Positions 18,622 to 35,883 of a stretch of DNA of 48,491 bases are shown one piece after another; the stretch's first letter is position 1, and every line of letters begins with the position of its first letter. This DNA comes from Methanosarcinales archaeon (lineage in GTDB: Archaea; Halobacteriota; Methanosarcinia; Methanosarcinales; Methanogasteraceae): NCBI GenBank assembly GCA_004211975.1, contig RXIK01000144.1, forward strand, positions 1 through 48,491. Direction: 5' to 3'. Below the pieces are notes generated by a model. That model was given only the letters and a program-made list of their open reading frames with translations, did no database searches and was not told the DNA's origin. Both the position numbers and the translations under genes were made by a program.

Positions 18622-19485
18622 ATGCGCATAGACGAAGCAGTCAGCAGGTCGGCAGTCGATATCGCAGAACGCATCCAGGCGTCCGCTATACTGCTCCCTG
18701 ACTCGTACGCTTCCGAAGAGCTTAAAACAAACATCCCAGTCGTAGTTCTACCAAAAAAAGCGTCTGATCTGGTGTATCAGACAATGCCGAGCTCCACCAT
18801 AAAGGAAAAAACCGTGCTTCAGGAGCACATACAGAAACTTGCTGTTGTCGGGTATCTTGAAGGCGCGATCAGCGGCTTGATCGTGGGGGTGATCGATGCC
18901 CCGAACTTTGACTCAATCGTTGTATATGACCCCCGCGAGAGCCATGCAGTGAAATCAATGCAGAAATGCGAGAAAATCGTGTGTTCCGATGTTTTTCGTG
19001 CGGTCATGAGCCTCTCACTCGAATTCGCGCTCGAGGGACGAGAAGGCAGACACATCGGCACAGCATTCATCATAGGAGATGAACAAAACGTTTTTGAAAG
19101 GTCCCATCAGCTCCTGCTCAACCCATTCAAAGGACACGCCCGCCACACCCGGCTGGTCACAAATAACGATAACTGGGAGACAATCAAGGAGTTTGCGCAA
19201 CTGGACGGCATTTTCGTAGTGTCAGGTGATGGGGTTATGTGCGCGTCCGGCAGATATCTTGATGTGGATGCAAGATCGATAACCATCCTGCAAGGTCTTG
19301 GCGGGCGACATGCAGCATCAGCCGCAATCACCGCCGAAACCGATGCGGTCGCAGTCGTTGTCTCCGCATCCGGCATAATCCGCGTGTACCAGGACAGTGA
19401 GCAGATCATCGTTATCGACCCCGGAGAATGGGTCGGGCGGTTCTACCGCAACATACTTGAGTCAGACGACAAATCACAATCATAA
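18622..19485 (+). CDS. dacZ: Diadenylate cyclase DacZ-like (DisA-N domain)
   Basis: Probably makes cyclic di-AMP from two ATP, a messenger in osmotic and potassium control. The N-terminal 130 aa form a pyruvate kinase-like alpha/beta domain, followed by the DisA-N catalytic domain: GTAFIIGDEQ, then LDGIFVVSGDGVMCASGRY, then LGGRHAASAAITAETDAVAVVVSASG. The usual DGA motif is DGI and RHR is RHA, so activity should be tested. The ATG preceded by GAGGGG is chosen; an in-frame ATG lies 39 nt upstream. It follows tsr3, and the truncated phosphoesterase follows it within 15 nt. Confidence 0.88.
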   Translation: MRIDEAVSRSAVDIAERIQASAILLPDSYASEELKTNIPVVVLPKKASDLVYQTMPSSTIKEKTVLQEHIQKLAVVGYLEGAISGLIVGVIDAPNFDSIVVYDPRESHAVKSMQKCEKIVCSDVFRAVMSLSLEFALEGREGRHIGTAFIIGDEQNVFERSHQLLLNPFKGHARHTRLVTNNDNWETIKEFAQLDGIFVVSGDGVMCASGRYLDVDARSITILQGLGGRHAASAAITAETDAVAVVVSASGIIRVYQDSEQIIVIDPGEWVGRFYRNILESDDKSQS

Positions 19486-19499
19486 TCACAATCCCAAAC

Positions 19500-19715
19500 A
19501 TGATCAAAAACCACGATCACCATGCGCAAATACCTGCCCTCGTGCACAAGGCAAGCAAAGCAGGGAGCGTTGATGTCGTGCTGATCGCCGGCTACATCAC
19601 CAACTTCGGACCGGACAAACTAACCTACGATCTGCTCAGCCTGCTTGAGCCGCTCAAATGCCCTGTGCTCGCGATCCCGGGAAACTGCGACCAGAAAAGC
19701 ACCGTGTTTTCATAA
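19500..19715 (+). pseudogene. Truncated duplicate of the downstream phosphoesterase gene
   Basis: Seventy-one codons whose bulk (from AQIPALV to GNCDQKS) matches the first third of the phosphoesterase at 21316-21981, with roughly nine in ten bases identical. It lacks the first metal-binding DPHGD segment and everything after GNCD, and the catalytic GDIT is GYIT. It therefore cannot be active. With the intact copy it brackets the ApeA-type gene as a partial direct repeat, a footprint of insertion or segmental duplication. Confidence 0.85.
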
Positions 19716-19762
19716 TATTTAGTGAGGGGGCGCAAATCGTTGAGATATTGCAACACACTTAA

Positions 19763-19788
19763 GTTAGCTAACCTCTTATTAGAGGTGG
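19763..19788 (+). promoter_or_regulatory. Palindrome and hairpin over the ribosome binding site of the ApeA-type gene
   Basis: GTTAGCTAAC (19763-19772) is a perfect 10-bp palindrome. Overlapping it, ACCTCT (19771-19776) and AGAGGT (19781-19786) form a hairpin with a TATT loop. The right arm contains the likely Shine-Dalgarno (GAGGTGG, 19782-19788), 6 nt before the ATG. The site could bind a repressor or hide the ribosome binding site in RNA. Confidence 0.5.
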
Positions 19789-19794
19789 TTAATA

Positions 19795-21186
19795 ATGATT
19801 GAGGAGTTTGAATACAAAGGGATATGGTGGCTTCCGGATAAGCCCGAAAAACAGACCTCCGGAACTCTTAGTTTTACTCCCGGCGAAGGAGCGATATTGG
19901 ATTTAATCGGTTCTTTTACAGATGCCAAAGAAGCAGCAGAGCCTGCAGATATTATTTTAGGGAGGGCATCTAATATTGGAGACATTACCCTGTATAAATG
20001 TTTTGAAAACAAGGTAAGTTATAGTTCCGCAGGATTTCAAACCTCTTCATTCTACGCCAACATGATTTTTATAGGTGCACACTTCCAGAAGTCGGAGGAC
20101 ATCAAATTTAAAAGCATCTATGTCCATTATTTATATTTGGATGAATGGGCCAATATCTCCGGGTTTGATATTCAAAGTCTCCCTGATGGGGGGATAGTTA
20201 TAAAACACAAGTTGCCTGAACCCATTAAGATGCGCATTGATGATGGCTGCGAGGTATGCATCATTATCCGCGCTGAAGTCTCCCCTAACCATGTTGTGCA
20301 AAAGGATGCAACTATTAAGCAGAGAACATATATAAAAATAGAGACATCGGAAGAAAAATCCTTTGAAGAATATGAGGGAATGATGTATCAGATACAGAAT
20401 TTTTTAAGTTTGGGAGTTTGGGAGTCAGTGTATCCGTTGGCAATCGAAGGAATAACAGAAGCAAACATGAAGAATACGAAAGATGGAACTTATTTTCCGC
20501 CGGTTAAAATATCATATGAACTGATAGACAGTCCCAAGGTATCTAAAACATTACTTCCGCGGGACATGCTTTTTACTTTTGAAGATATTTCTGACAGATT
20601 CGATATTTTCCTGAGAAAATGGTTTGAGACAGCGGATTTATTAAAACCTACTTATGATCTGTATTTTGGAACATTATGCAATCCTCATATGTATCGTGAG
20701 TACCATTTCTTAAGTTTAATGCAAGCTATAGAATCATTTCACCGGTGTATATATGGGGGAGACTATTTATCAGATGACGAGTATAAAGAGATTCACAATG
20801 TTCTCGTAAATGCGATTCCAGATTGGGTTAAAAAAGATTTTAGAAACAGCTTGGAAAGTAAACTGAAGTATGGTAACGAGTTTTCTCTAAGAAAAAGATT
20901 AAAAGAACTTTTTAATGAATATCAGAATGAAATTCCAGGTCTATTTATACAAAACAAAGGTGCTTTTATTGAACAAGCGGTTGATACCAGAAATTATCTA
21001 ACCCATTATGATAAAGATCTGAAAGAACGTGCTGCCAGTGGGATTGGCATTTTTCACCTTACCTATAAATTGAAAATGTTGCTGGAAATATGTTTACTGA
21101 GAGAATTGGGGTTTAGTTCAGAAGAAATTAAAGACCGTTTTCCAAAAATACTTAGGAGGTATCGGAGGTATGATTTTATCCAATAA
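19795..21186 (+). CDS. ApeA-like HEPN-domain anti-phage protein
   Basis: A 463-aa protein. The N-terminal portion (EYKGIWWLPDKPEKQTSGTL, then beta-rich sequence to about residue 200) resembles the ApeA N-terminal domain, and the C-terminal part is helical with RNYLTH (about residues 399-404), matching the Rx4H motif of HEPN ribonucleases. In bacteria ApeA is a one-gene abortive-infection system thought to cut tRNA or other RNA. The gene is much richer in A+T than its neighbours, which suggests acquisition. It has its own AT-rich promoter region and a hairpin over its ribosome binding site. Its assignment rests on pattern recognition. Confidence 0.72.
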   Translation: MIEEFEYKGIWWLPDKPEKQTSGTLSFTPGEGAILDLIGSFTDAKEAAEPADIILGRASNIGDITLYKCFENKVSYSSAGFQTSSFYANMIFIGAHFQKSEDIKFKSIYVHYLYLDEWANISGFDIQSLPDGGIVIKHKLPEPIKMRIDDGCEVCIIIRAEVSPNHVVQKDATIKQRTYIKIETSEEKSFEEYEGMMYQIQNFLSLGVWESVYPLAIEGITEANMKNTKDGTYFPPVKISYELIDSPKVSKTLLPRDMLFTFEDISDRFDIFLRKWFETADLLKPTYDLYFGTLCNPHMYREYHFLSLMQAIESFHRCIYGGDYLSDDEYKEIHNVLVNAIPDWVKKDFRNSLESKLKYGNEFSLRKRLKELFNEYQNEIPGLFIQNKGAFIEQAVDTRNYLTHYDKDLKERAASGIGIFHLTYKLKMLLEICLLRELGFSSEEIKDRFPKILRRYRRYDFIQ

Positions 21187-21315
21187 CACTTCGACTAACC
21201 GAATAGATCTGGCTACGTGTCTTCGGCACTCCACTCAAATCAGACCACATGGCTGGACTTCAGATACACTTGGAATGTTAAACATAAGCATACTGCAATC
21301 AATCAAGGTGAAAAC

Positions 21316-21981
21316 ATGAAATTACTCGCAATATCCGATCCACACGGCGATTACGCGCAGATACCTGCCCTCGTGCGCAAGGCAAGCAAAGCAGGGAGCG
21401 TCGACGTCGTACTGATCGCCGGCGACATCACCAACTTCGGACCAGACGAACTAACCTACGATCTGCTCAGCCTGCTTGAGCCGCTCGAATGCCCTGTGCT
21501 TGCGATTCCAGGAAACTGTGACCAAAAAAGCATTCTTACAACCCTTGATGCGTCAAGCGCAGTCAATCTTGAGAATACCATGCACACCATCGGGAATGTC
21601 ACATTTGTCGGCATCGGCGGCTCGAACCCGACGCCATTTGACACGGTGTTCGAGCGATCAGAAGATGAGATCAGTGCGATGCTCGACGATCTGTTGAGCC
21701 GGGCAGGCGGGGACGCGCGAATCGTGTTGTTGTCACATGCGCCCCCAAAGAACACGCTTGACCGGATACCCGGAGGGAATGCGGGAAGCGAGGCGATTGC
21801 AGGCGCAATCGGCAAAGCAGACCTGATCGTGTGTGGGCACATCCACGAGGATCAGGGAACAATGGTTGTAAGCGCGCATGGAAAAGAGACCGTGGTCGTA
21901 AATGCCGGACAGGCATCTCAGGGGAAGAGCATACTCCTCATGATCAATGGTGGCATCGAGGCGCAGCTCAACAACATCTGA
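21316..21981 (+). CDS. Metallophosphoesterase, YfcE/MJ0936-like
   Basis: A 221-aa calcineurin-like phosphodiesterase/phosphatase with all metal-ligand motifs: DPHGD, GDITNFG, GNCD, LSHAPP and GHIHEDQG. Such enzymes hydrolyse phosphodiesters or nucleotide phosphates with two divalent metals; the substrate is not known. The start with AAGGTG upstream is chosen; the frame stays open for 99 nt before it. Its 5' portion is duplicated at 19500-19715. In the ancestral arrangement it probably followed dacZ directly, with the ApeA-type gene coming between later. Confidence 0.88.
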   Translation: MKLLAISDPHGDYAQIPALVRKASKAGSVDVVLIAGDITNFGPDELTYDLLSLLEPLECPVLAIPGNCDQKSILTTLDASSAVNLENTMHTIGNVTFVGIGGSNPTPFDTVFERSEDEISAMLDDLLSRAGGDARIVLLSHAPPKNTLDRIPGGNAGSEAIAGAIGKADLIVCGHIHEDQGTMVVSAHGKETVVVNAGQASQGKSILLMINGGIEAQLNNI

Positions 21982-22003
21982 GACCTGAGAAACAGCTGCG
22001 AGA

Positions 22004-22074
22004 GCCTCGGGCGGGAATTGAACCCGCGACCTCGTCATTACCAATGACGCGCTATACCGCTAAGCCACCGAGGC
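22004..22074 (-). tRNA. tRNA-Thr (anticodon GGT)
   Basis: Read on the minus strand, the 71-nt cloverleaf has the acceptor stem GCCTCGG/CCGAGGC, a D arm with AGCGGTA, anticodon stem CGTCA/TGACG with loop TTGGTAA (anticodon GGT, reading ACC), and T arm GCGGG-TTCAATT-CCCGC. No CCA is encoded and there is no intron. tRNA genes are common integration targets; a 34-bp direct repeat begins 12 bp away. Confidence 0.96.
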
Positions 22075-22278: not shown

Positions 22279-22368
22279 ATGCAAGTGGAACCGCTCCAGC
22301 AACTATTATACCTCAGATACGGCACATATCGGCATCTGCTCTCCGATGGAGATGAGATCCGCCCATGA
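22279..22368 (+). CDS. Small upstream ORF coupled to the Roco gene
   Basis: A 29-codon reading frame (starting MQVEPLQQLL, ending DGDEIRP) whose stop overlaps the Roco ATG as ATGA. A purine-rich AAGAAGGGAAAGG precedes its ATG, a better ribosome site than any just before the Roco start. It may be a leader peptide whose translation delivers ribosomes to the Roco gene, or merely the N-terminal region of a longer spurious frame. No family is recognised. Confidence 0.4.
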   Translation: MQVEPLQQLLYLRYGTYRHLLSDGDEIRP

Positions 22369-24863
22369 GCGACGATGATGTACTTCAAAAGATCAAGAAA
22401 GCCGCAAGAAAAGGAGCGACAGAGCTTGACCTCTCACATAACCAGCTGACCGTTCTTCCGCCCGAGATCGGTGAACTGACCTGCTTGACACGGCTTGGCC
22501 TCTCGGGTAACCAGCTGACAACTTTTCCTCCTGTGATCAGTAAACTGACCAACCTGACAGAGCTTAGCCTCGTGAATAACCAACTGACCACACTTCCCCC
22601 TGAGATTGGCAAACTGACGAACCTGACATGGCTCAACCTCCATGATAACCAACTGACTGCTCTTCTTCCTGAGATCACTGAACTGAAGAGCCTGAAATGG
22701 CTTAACCTCTGGAGTAACCAGCTGACCGCTTTTCCTCCTGAGATTACTGAACTGAAAAGCATAACAGAGCTTTACCTCCGGAGTAACAAGTTGACAGCTC
22801 TTCCTCCTGAGATCGGTGGACTGACCAACATGACCGATCTTGACCTCCAGAGTAACAAGCTGACTGCTCTTCCTCCTGAGATTGCTGGACTGACCCGCCT
22901 GACATATCTTAACCTCCAAGATAACCCACTCCCGATCCCGCCTGAAATCATAACGAAAACAGACGAACCCGCGACCATCATCAACTATTATCTGCAGCAC
23001 GAAGCCGGTGAGAAGAAGCCACTGAACGAGGCAAAGATGCTCCTTGTCGGGCAGGGGAGCGTGGGCAAGACATCGCTTGTGAAGCGTCTGCTTCGGGACG
23101 AGTTTGACCTGCATGAAGAGAAGACCGAAGGCATCGGGATCGAAGAGTGGCAGGTTGTGGTTAATGACCAGAAGATCAGGCTCAATATGTGGGACTTTGG
23201 TGGGCAGGAGATCATGCATGCCACGCATCAGTTCTTCCTGACCAAACGCAGCCTGTACCTGCTCGTTCTGGATGCGCGGCTCGGGGATGAGGAGAACCGG
23301 ATTGAGTACTGGCTCAAGATCATCAAGAGCTTCGGCGGGGATTCTCCAGTTATAATTGTCGTCAACAAGGTCGATGAGCAGCCGCTCGACATTGATGGAC
23401 GGGGACTTATGGCAAAGTACAGGAGCATCAAGAAGATCGTCGAGGTCTCCTGCAAAACAGGTGGCGGTATCGATGAACTAAAAGATGTCATCGCAGAAGA
23501 GGTCGGCTCGCTTGAGCATGTACACGATCCGCTACTGACTACATGGTCCGCTGTCAAGAGCAAGCTGGAAGGAATGGGTAAGGACTATATTCCTTATCAT
23601 GAGTATCTGAACATGTGTCAGACTGAAGGCATAACCGATGATCTCAGTCAGCGTACCTTAATCCGCTTACTTCATGATCTGGGTATCGTGCTTAATTTCA
23701 ATGACGATCCCCGACTGGAAGATACCAATATCCTAAACCCGGAATGGGTCACCAACGGCGTTTATAAGATTCTGAATTCTAAAGAGTTGTTGCAGATAGG
23801 GGGTGTTCTGGAATGGGACATGCTGAGCCGGATATTGGACTCTTCCGAATATCCCCGCGATAAACACATATTTATCATGGATATGATGCGCAAGTTCAAA
23901 CTCTGCTTTGCTTTTGAGGACGTTCCCGATCCGAGATTCCTGATTCCGGATCTGCTCCCCAGGGAAGAACAATATACAGGCGAATGGGGCGATGCGCTGG
24001 CTTTCCAGTACCATTATGATGTGCTTCCGGGAAGCATCATCTCACAATTCATCGTGCGTATGCACCCCTCTATCTGCGAAAATACCTACTGGCGCAGTGG
24101 GGTTGTACTGGAAGACAAGGATAGTGGGAATAAAGCACTGGTTAAGGCAGACAGTGATGACAAAAAGGTCTTTATCCGGGTTAGTGGCATAGAGCAGACC
24201 CGGCGAATCTTCCTTGGCATCATCCGTTCCAATTTTGATCACATCCACAAAACCATTCCTGGAATCGAACCCGAAGAGAAGGTGCCCTTGTTAGATCATC
24301 CAGAGATTGTGGTTGGTTACAGGCATCTACTGAACATGGAAAAGAAGGGTGTAACGACTCATTTCCCGGAAGAACTTGAAGGAACAGGGGTTGACGTCAA
24401 AGAACTGCTCAACGGCGTTGAATCTGAAGAAGATCGCAGAGAACGAAGAAAAGAAAGCGGCGCTGGAATAACTGCGGGGAGGGATGTGATAATTAGCGCT
24501 GTGGGAGGTCAAATTGCGATAGAAAAAGATATCGCACAGCAGGAAAACGGCATGAAAGGCGTGGGGCTCGCACATCGACCAACACCATCACCTCCACCGG
24601 GAACCGAGCATGCGAACCCGTGGAGTTCAGGGTCATTCTATCTGATGGCAATAGTCGTCATCATGACTGTGATCGCTGTTATCATCAAAAATATACCATG
24701 GTATGCCATTCCGGTCGTGATTATTGGAGGAATAGTAATCATCGCTGTGATTGGTGCTTTGCAACTTAGGCAGGATAACAGGTTGAGTGAGGCTAGCTTC
24801 CTGGCACTCGTGCGTGAGACTTTCAAGCAGTTGCCTCTGCTCAAGACTCTGCTCAAGAAATGA
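22365..24863 (+). CDS. Leucine-rich repeat Roco GTPase with C-terminal membrane helices
   Basis: An 832-aa Roco protein. Residues about 18-195 hold seven to eight leucine-rich repeats (LTxLPPEIxxLTxLTxLxLxxN). The Roc GTPase follows, with P-loop GQGSVGKTSL (near 230), DFGGQE (near 276) and NKVD (near 332), then the COR dimerisation region to about 650. After a linker with ITAGRDVIIS, two hydrophobic helices (about 758-801) anchor the end of the protein, leaving a 31-residue tail. Roco proteins cycle through monomer-dimer states with GTP, and some are signalling scaffolds or effectors in conflict systems. Flanking 34-bp repeats and a nearby tRNA suggest acquisition as a cassette. Confidence 0.93.
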   Translation: MSDDDVLQKIKKAARKGATELDLSHNQLTVLPPEIGELTCLTRLGLSGNQLTTFPPVISKLTNLTELSLVNNQLTTLPPEIGKLTNLTWLNLHDNQLTALLPEITELKSLKWLNLWSNQLTAFPPEITELKSITELYLRSNKLTALPPEIGGLTNMTDLDLQSNKLTALPPEIAGLTRLTYLNLQDNPLPIPPEIITKTDEPATIINYYLQHEAGEKKPLNEAKMLLVGQGSVGKTSLVKRLLRDEFDLHEEKTEGIGIEEWQVVVNDQKIRLNMWDFGGQEIMHATHQFFLTKRSLYLLVLDARLGDEENRIEYWLKIIKSFGGDSPVIIVVNKVDEQPLDIDGRGLMAKYRSIKKIVEVSCKTGGGIDELKDVIAEEVGSLEHVHDPLLTTWSAVKSKLEGMGKDYIPYHEYLNMCQTEGITDDLSQRTLIRLLHDLGIVLNFNDDPRLEDTNILNPEWVTNGVYKILNSKELLQIGGVLEWDMLSRILDSSEYPRDKHIFIMDMMRKFKLCFAFEDVPDPRFLIPDLLPREEQYTGEWGDALAFQYHYDVLPGSIISQFIVRMHPSICENTYWRSGVVLEDKDSGNKALVKADSDDKKVFIRVSGIEQTRRIFLGIIRSNFDHIHKTIPGIEPEEKVPLLDHPEIVVGYRHLLNMEKKGVTTHFPEELEGTGVDVKELLNGVESEEDRRERRKESGAGITAGRDVIISAVGGQIAIEKDIAQQENGMKGVGLAHRPTPSPPPGTEHANPWSSGSFYLMAIVVIMTVIAVIIKNIPWYAIPVVIIGGIVIIAVIGALQLRQDNRLSEASFLALVRETFKQLPLLKTLLKK

Positions 24864-34259: not shown

Positions 34260-34571
34260 ATGGCATACAAATATCCATCAGAGAAACTGTTCGTTGAGGC
34301 ACTGAAGTCAAAGTTCGCGGGACTCGATCTTGCTGACCAGAAGACCCAGTACAAGCGTGCCGGATACGTCCAGAACTCACGAAAGAGAGAATTCCAGGCA
34401 GCAGGCAAGGCAGTTGCAGAGAAGCGTGGCATGCAGCAGTACGATGTGAACGTGCACCTTGGCGGTATGACGCTCGGACAGAGGCAGCTCGTACCATACA
34501 AGCTCTCAACCCAACCGGACATAGTAGAGGGCGATGACCTGCAGAATGGACCTTGCTCACGAGACTCTTGA
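34260..34571 (+). pseudogene. mcrA: mcrA, 5' part (frame lost after about 95 codons)
   Basis: Encodes the N-terminus of the alpha subunit: YPSEKLFVEALKSKFAGLDL, RKREFQAAGKAVAEKRGMQQYD and [17 protein letters not shown] all align with McrA. After GDDLQ (34544) the frame runs through eight unrelated codons to a stop. The next conserved block resumes in another frame at 34546. About 21 residues that McrA normally has here (the YVNNAAMQQMWDD region) are absent, so roughly 62 nt have been lost. This is not mcrG, which is intact upstream. Confidence 0.9.
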
Positions 34572-35883
34572 AAAGCGTCTCGGAAAAGAGGTTACACCTG
34601 AGTCGATCGCCGGCTACATGGAAGCAGTAAACCACACCATGCCAGGCGCAGCTATTGTGCAGGAGCACATGGTTGAAACACACCCTGGACTTGTTGACGA
34701 CTGCTACGTGAAGATGTTCACTGGCGACGACGAACTCGCAGACGAGATCGACTCGCAGTACGTGATCAACATCAACGACCTCTTCGACAAGGAAGGACAG
34801 AACGAGAAGCTCAAGGCTGCAATAGGCAAGACCACATGGCAGGCAGTACACATCCCAACAATCGTTGTGCGCTGCTGTGACGGTGGTAACACATCCAGAT
34901 GGAGTGCAATGCAGATCGGTATGTCGTTCATTGCGGCATACAACATGTGCGCTGGTGAGGCTGCAGTAGCAGACCTTGCGTTCGCGGCAAAGCACGCAGC
35001 AGCAATCCAGATGGCTGAGATGCTTCCAGCAAGAAGAGCAAGATCACCAAACGAGCCAGGAGGACTTTCCTTCGGTTACTGCGCTGACATGGTCCAGAAG
35101 ATGCGAGTCAAGCCGGAAGACCCGGTCTTGTACACACTTGAGGTCGTTGCTTGCGGCACGATGCTCTACGACCAGATATGGCTTGGATCATACATGTCAG
35201 GCGGTGTCGGATTCACGCAGTACGCAACAGCAGCATACACCAACGACGTGCTGGATGACTTCACGTACTACGGATACGACTACGCACTGAAGAAGTACAA
35301 AGAGGACGGAGCAGCGCCAAACGACCTTGCAACCGCAACCGAACTTGCAACTGAGGTTACCTTAAACGGCATGGAGTGCTACGAGGACTACCCAACGCTT
35401 CTTGAGGACCACTTCGGTGGATCCCAGAGAGCAGGAATCCTTGCAGCAGCCAGTGCATGCACAACCGGTATCGCAACCGGTAACGCACAGGTAGCACTGT
35501 CTGCATGGTACATGTCGATGTACCTGCACAAGGAAGGCTGGGGACGACTCGGATTCTTCGGATACGACCTACAAGACCAGTGCGGTGCAACCAACGTATG
35601 CTCGTACCAGGGTGACGAGGGATGCTGCCTCGAACTCCGTGGCGCAAACTACCCGAACTACGCGATGAACGTAGGTCACCAGGGCGAGTACGCAGGATTC
35701 ACTGGTGCAGCACACGCAGGCGCACACGACGCATACTGCTGCAACCCACTCGTGAAGGTGACATTCGCTGACCCATCACTGGTATTCGACTTCTCCGACA
35801 TCAGGAAGGAGTACGCCAAGGGCGCGATGCGAACATTCAGACCAGCAGGCGAGCGCAGCCTGGTTATACCAGCAGGCGTATAG
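34534..35883 (+). CDS. mcrA: Methyl-coenzyme M reductase alpha subunit, main body
   Basis: Homology begins at [16 protein letters not shown] (34546) and runs to the end. All active-site parts are present: the Gln that ligates Ni-F430 ([10 protein letters not shown]), the methyl-His and methyl-Arg sites ([18 protein letters not shown]), [11 protein letters not shown], the methyl-Gln site FGGSQRAG, and [11 protein letters not shown] with the thioglycine Gly and neighbouring Asp and Cys. The residue before the thioglycine is Phe where most methanogens have Tyr. Extra cysteines occur in [10 protein letters not shown] and AYCCNP. Without the lost linker and the 5' part this frame could not make a normal McrA. 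If the deletion is an assembly error the gene is intact. Confidence 0.93.

Follow-up and report, generated by a model that had tools for sequence, protein, structure and literature searches.

How did a gene for an ApeA-type defence protein come to lie between a truncated and an intact copy of the same phosphoesterase gene in a Methanosarcinales archaeon? We analyzed a stretch of 48,491 nucleotides (the window, throughout) from a MAG that is 87% complete (G000). The features that bear on this question are as follows.

Upstream of dacZ: tsr3, assumed in our explanation to form an operon with dacZ.
18622-19485, plus strand: dacZ, an intact diadenylate cyclase gene (PF02457 DAC, PF21754 DacZ_A) and left neighbour, syntenic with the phosphoesterase gene in relatives.
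19524-19701, plus strand: phosphoesterase copy 1, the remnant of the 5' part of the native gene; a decayed continuation may reach about 19747.
19748-19763, plus strand: left flank of the cassette, holding the left part of a second, degenerate dacZ 3' end; last base G.
19764-21277, plus strand: integron gene cassette (1514 bp) that opens with TTAGCT and closes with the R' box G; left end common to the ApeA cassette of G016.
19795-21186, plus strand: ApeA-type HEPN protein of 463 aa, with RNYLTH (Rx4H) at residues 399-404.
21193-21283, plus strand: degenerate attC-like site (R'' GACTAAC, 21193-21199; R' GTTAAAC, 21277-21283).
21278-21297, plus strand: right flank of the cassette, the remainder of the degenerate dacZ-end copy.
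21316-21981, plus strand: phosphoesterase copy 2, an intact metallophosphoesterase (PF00149, E=3e-21; motifs SDPHGD, GDITNFG, GNCD and GHIH), orthologous to the phosphoesterase of relatives.
22002-22074, minus strand: tRNA-Thr (GGT), the right syntenic marker, identical in G003.

The source organism, a member of the Methanosarcinales, has mcrA, which in the window occupies two separate frames (34260-34571; 34534-35883), the joint between them lacking about 15-20 residues; it is either a pseudogene or the product of an assembly indel.

Comparison of the dacZ-phosphoesterase locus among related genomes, proposed in the preliminary description of this DNA, showed that dacZ is followed directly by the phosphoesterase gene in two members of the same genus (G003 and G004) and in other members of the family. 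The tsr3 gene precedes dacZ in relatives wherever the contig reaches, and the identical tRNA-Thr gene stands behind the phosphoesterase in G003. The uninterrupted tsr3-dacZ-phosphoesterase order of the relatives implies that the ApeA gene was inserted here, and none of the relatives seen has it at this position. The inserted gene had been called AT-rich against GC-rich neighbours, and the computed values agree: its GC content is 36.6% and its GC3 34.5%, compared to 49-55% and 54-63%, respectively, in purC, acs, dacZ, and the intact phosphoesterase gene. Pfam and PADLOC likewise support the earlier statement that only the ApeA/HEPN gene lies between the two phosphoesterase copies, but the attC-like site at 21193-21283 in the same interval had been overlooked. 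The tRNA-Thr gene was ruled out as the integration target, as it lies 21 nt beyond the intact phosphoesterase gene and has no repeat at the insert. Between this tRNA gene and an aldehyde ferredoxin oxidoreductase-like gene, the window encodes an LRR-Roc-COR (ROCO-type) protein with tandem 69-nt repeats (22365-24863), which was not found at the same place in G003.

The inserted gene encodes a full-length member of the ApeA family, in which the N-terminal domain (PF18862 ApeA_NTD1, E=9e-58, residues 6-276) is fused to an Apea-like HEPN domain (PF18739 HEPN_Apea, E=4e-36, residues 306-444), both scoring above gathering. PADLOC matches were to PDC-S58 (E=2e-115) and Cas13-ApeA (E=3e-52). The HEPN Rx4-6H motif is intact (RNYLTH, residues 399-404), and its R399 and H404 are invariant in six homologues. 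An AlphaFold model computed from six sequences was of low confidence (pLDDT 61, with most of the HEPN half under 55), and a sequence search found no solved structural homologue. The protein is probably an abortive-infection RNase that acts through its HEPN Rx4H site. ApeA is rare in the class, occurring in 7 of 238 genomes, and the homologue in G016, which belongs to another genus, is 50% identical to that of the window. The source genome contains no further copies of the insert above chance.

The phosphoesterase duplication had been described as part of the gene present twice in direct orientation about 1.8 kb apart. It is an ungapped direct repeat of 178 nt (19524-19701 and 21355-21532; 92% identity; 1831 nt from start to start) and by far the strongest repeat of the region apart from the LRR repeats. 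The reported loss of the catalytic Asp in the outer copy (GYIT for GDIT) is also real, and this D-to-Y change is private to copy 1. The damage to copy 1 exceeds that already described, because a deletion of ~65 nt took away the ribosome-binding site together with the start codon and some 12 initial codons, among them those for the DxH metal motif, and as a consequence the ATG at 19500 falls in former intergenic DNA. The start of the intact gene, formerly placed at 21217, was corrected to 21316. On the copy 1 side, the intergenic stretch behind dacZ agrees with that of G004 at 92% identity across 39 nt, after which about 65 nt are absent, and the DNA before copy 2 differs from the intergenic DNA before copy 1. 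Since copy 1 keeps the native flank after dacZ, we take copy 1 to be the remnant of the native gene and copy 2 to be the working gene. Positions 19702-19747 weakly resemble the continuation of the phosphoesterase (p about 0.007-0.01). The two copies differ at 14 of 178 sites, and the location of 10 of these differences at third codon positions implies selection on both copies during most of their divergence. They are 92.1% identical to each other, and each is 91.7% identical to the gene of G004, which is another species; nevertheless they group as sisters (support 91) and have in common a 9-nt insertion that is absent from G003 and G004. Either long function of both copies or the arrival of one of them from a sister lineage would account for this pattern.

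The borders of the insert are those of a gene cassette. The right border is set by the R' box (G^TTAAAC, between 21277 and 21278), and the left border, between 19763 and 19764, by comparison with the ApeA cassette of G016: both cassettes share G^TTAGC, about 33 nt ahead of the start codon, and the ribosome-binding region, and diverge upstream. The insert thus consists of a single ORF followed by an attC-like site in the same orientation, with G^TT borders at both ends. When the cassette was excised in a script, the flanks read GCAACACACTTAAG^TTAAAC and matched the dacZ 3' end of G003 at 17 of 20 positions and that of the window at 16 of 20 (shuffle p 0.004-0.02), although the match is short. 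This rejoining to a dacZ end implies that the cassette interrupts a second dacZ tail, itself degenerate. The borders of the duplication are not those of the insert, because the cassette ends lie within the duplicated unit; together with the rejoined flanks, this implies that the phosphoesterase duplication was separate, ~0.3 kb in size, and interrupted by the cassette. The locus that received the cassette probably consisted of a simple tandem duplication, which took in the dacZ tail, the intergenic DNA, and the 5' part of the phosphoesterase gene. No convincing terminal inverted repeats were found at the ends of the insert, and direct repeats flanking the ApeA genes of G016 or G215 were at chance level only. 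Of the earlier proposal that an ApeA-type gene was captured with a partial duplication of its target, the ApeA-type identity, the foreign composition, and the absence from relatives stand. By contrast, the duplication does not hold as the route of insertion, and attC-mediated integration explains the locus better than partial duplication as a mechanism for inserting archaeal defence cassettes.

These borders also bear on a model in which a related strain donated ApeA together with the phosphoesterase piece. The route would be single-crossover recombination or homology-facilitated illegitimate recombination, and duplication and insertion would be one event. Such an origin would fit the copies being as far apart as each is from G004, the third-position differences that point to long selection on both, and the DNA before copy 2, which is not that of copy 1. 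However, the cassette ends and the duplication ends differ, the flanks rejoin to a dacZ end, the copies are sisters with a common insertion, and the attC already accounts for the mobility of ApeA. We consider this single event unlikely, and it could still be true for the arrival of a segment that already bore the cassette. A highly improbable explanation is that mixed strains produced the arrangement as an assembly or binning artefact. The source is a MAG, mcrA on the same contig has an unexpected frameshifting deletion, and the phosphoesterase copies differ at strain level; against this, both flanks are syntenic with G003 and the left one also with G004, the joints are not at repeats, copy 1 has decayed independently, and the unit of ApeA and attC recurs in G016.

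The attC-like site starts 6 nt behind the ApeA stop codon, in the same orientation. The first ~90 nt behind this stop recur elsewhere in genomes of the family, including directly behind the ApeA homologue of G016, and the aligned copies have AAC...GTT at their ends and, inside, a stem (GAGCGTATCTG/CAGATACGCTC) as well as two hairpins, which is the plan of an integron attC. We built a covariance model (R1) from seven copies, including that of the window, which scores 80 bits (E=8e-20) as a member of this training set. Of 40 relatives, 27 contain matches to R1, and the closed genome G018 (contig LR991653.1, GoM-Arc1) has 32 of them. With a strict cut-off, R1 sites occur in 41 of the 238 class genomes. 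Training sites match R1 by construction, and the argument for attC rests on orientation, gene context, folding, and distribution. Among related sites, AAC is present at R'' in 103 of 117 and GTT at R' in 104 of 117, and the GACTAAC and GTTAAAC of the window fit this pattern. A same-strand ORF ends at most 60 nt upstream of 81 of 108 sites (75%), compared to 16% for random positions and 23% for a mirror control. The genes before sites encode restriction enzymes, methyltransferases, HepT, HicA, an OLD-like ATPase, and SLATT, a set that resembles published archaeal cassettes (PMC9668308). For seven related sites, the bottom strand has a stronger fold than its shuffled versions (z -2.2 to -7.3), with a paired R-stem, an unpaired spacer, a paired L-stem, and hairpins. 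The bottom strand of the window site, in contrast, shows no fold beyond shuffles (z +0.4), which marks this site as degenerate: it is related to the others without being a working attC. The window R'' pairs with the 5' end of its own cassette only over GTTAG, and pairing of the 11-nt outer arms across sites is not above that in shuffles (0.429 vs 0.413), as expected if the right half of each R' belongs to the next cassette. The assignment to attC draws on our own R1 model and the anatomy of the site.

MITEs and small RNAs can likewise have imperfect inverted repeats with two hairpins inside, and the ~90-nt element might be one of these that happens to follow ApeA. A MITE or structured RNA would be expected in mixed orientations and gene contexts, but all 26 of the loci with at least two sites, drawn from other archaea and bacteria, have a single orientation, and the spacing of their sites (mostly 0.5-2 kb) is that of arrays. 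The position of the site directly behind ORF stops, the AAC/GTT R boxes, the stronger folding of the bottom strand, the patchy spread across domains, and the presence of IntI in the order further argue against this origin, which we strongly disfavour as extremely improbable. No Rfam family matches at the position of the element, and a structured RNA was rejected there.

An exact 23-mer from the 3' half of the attC was found in 63 contigs from Methanosarcinales, Methanophagales, Thermoplasmata, Archaeoglobus, other archaea, and many bacterial phyla. This common sequence suggests a cross-domain cassette pool in archaea and bacteria of anoxic sediments. The 23-mer was absent from the viral contigs searched, and no ApeA relative was found in phage records or the viral contigs searched; carriage by a phage or virus was therefore rejected. 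Within the window, the R1 search found a single attC-like site. On other contigs of the source genome, two further attC-like sites lie behind a TrmO-like and an ATPase-like ORF (L191:4327-4415 on C175 and L192:758-839 on C53).

A true IntI with the IntI-specific segment is encoded in G022, closest by sequence to IntI4 (2a3v) of Vibrio cholerae, and proteins of G070 and G074 also exceed the IntI family cut-off, making three genomes of the order with IntI in all. The G022 gene (L190:3446-4360) lies among transposase genes, and its C-terminus is cut or frameshifted. No IntI and no related XerA-type recombinase were found in the source genome (G000). With no IntI found and a single attC in the window, the locus lacks the intI and attI beside an array that make a complete integron. 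Tyrosine recombinases of G018 that were first taken as IntI proved to be XerA-type. Members of this XerA-type family, often degraded, lie near attC-like sites (L188:4123-5265, L187:2078-2743, L130, L159, and others). That an archaeal XerA-type tyrosine recombinase, and not IntI, moved the cassette would agree with the finding that about 11 of 72 loci have such a gene or fragment close to an attC-like site, on the same strand in 9. However, these proteins lack the IntI-specific segment, their genes could be cassettes themselves, and none was found in G000; we regard movement by XerA as very unlikely.

Taken together, these results make it likely that the ApeA gene entered as a single integron gene cassette, and that a separate duplication of the dacZ tail and phosphoesterase was interrupted by it. 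Counting against this reading are the failure to find IntI or a XerA-type recombinase in G000, the decayed fold of the window attC, its singleton state, which attC surveys would discard, and the shortness of the dacZ-end match. ApeA would have arrived as one cassette (19764-21277), a promoterless-type ORF with its own ribosome-binding site plus an attC. An IntI, acting in trans or since lost, would have recombined the attC with a G^TT (attG-like) site, and this target would have been part of the degenerate repeat of the dacZ 3' end that lies immediately ahead of the phosphoesterase. The phosphoesterase duplication would represent a separate ~0.3-kb copy of the dacZ tail, the intergenic DNA, and the phosphoesterase 5' part, in which the upstream copy, beside dacZ, was native and then decayed, and the downstream copy became the working gene. 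Either order of the two events, duplication first or cassette first, would be possible. The attC would have decayed later, and its present state (z +0.4) implies that the ApeA gene is probably fixed now. The orientation of the cassette, which is that of dacZ, allows expression by read-through, and the gene is probably read with the tsr3-dacZ operon. ApeA itself would be an RNase triggered by infection.

Archaeal integrons, defence cassettes, and insertion outside integrons were each known separately before. Integrons and CALINs have been described in archaeal MAGs as attC arrays mostly without IntI, with cassettes enriched in toxin-antitoxin and restriction/methylation genes and with structure-specific attC sites that are recombined by IntI1 (Ghaly et al., 2022; PMC9668308). 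That survey left out singleton attC sites, whereas the cassette of the window is a solitary one, located in a core locus and with ApeA as its gene. Insertion of cassettes outside integrons at attG sites (Loot et al., 2024, Nat Microbiol, as reported in PMC12444791 and PMC12901181) resembles the present case in that the cassette lies outside any array; as reported there, it was bacterial and experimental, whereas insertion here would be deduced from one archaeal locus. HEPN and anti-phage cassettes have been published in bacterial integrons, the latter by Darracq (2025), Kieffer (2025), and Getz (2025), as reported in PMC12444791 and PMC12409362; a defence gene in cassette form is common to these accounts and the window, which differs in its archaeal host and its ApeA gene. 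The family was defined in Anantharaman et al. (2013; PMC3710099), and ApeA itself is from Gao et al. (2020), as cited in PMC7699616. As represented in these sources, known ApeA proteins share ApeA_NTD1 and a HEPN domain with a conserved Rx4H with that of the window, but occur in R-M operons or defence islands and not in an integron cassette. An archaeal singleton cassette in a core locus with ApeA as cargo was not described in the literature searched, mostly outside subscription journals.

A broader and rather doubtful reading is that Methanosarcinales chromosomes routinely take in lone defence cassettes, at attG-like sites within core operons, outside integrons and perhaps moved by XerA-type recombinases, and that these form a dispersed defence pool, which attC surveys would have overlooked because they drop singletons. 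The locus also shows that the single attC sites of archaeal genomes are worth counting. The loose idea that defence genes are captured with a duplication of their target is replaced by a testable one, recombination at attC. For an archaeon that is not among the usual models, the locus would show a concrete path to a defence gene, with a cassette currency that would be the same as in bacteria and common to both domains in anoxic sediments.
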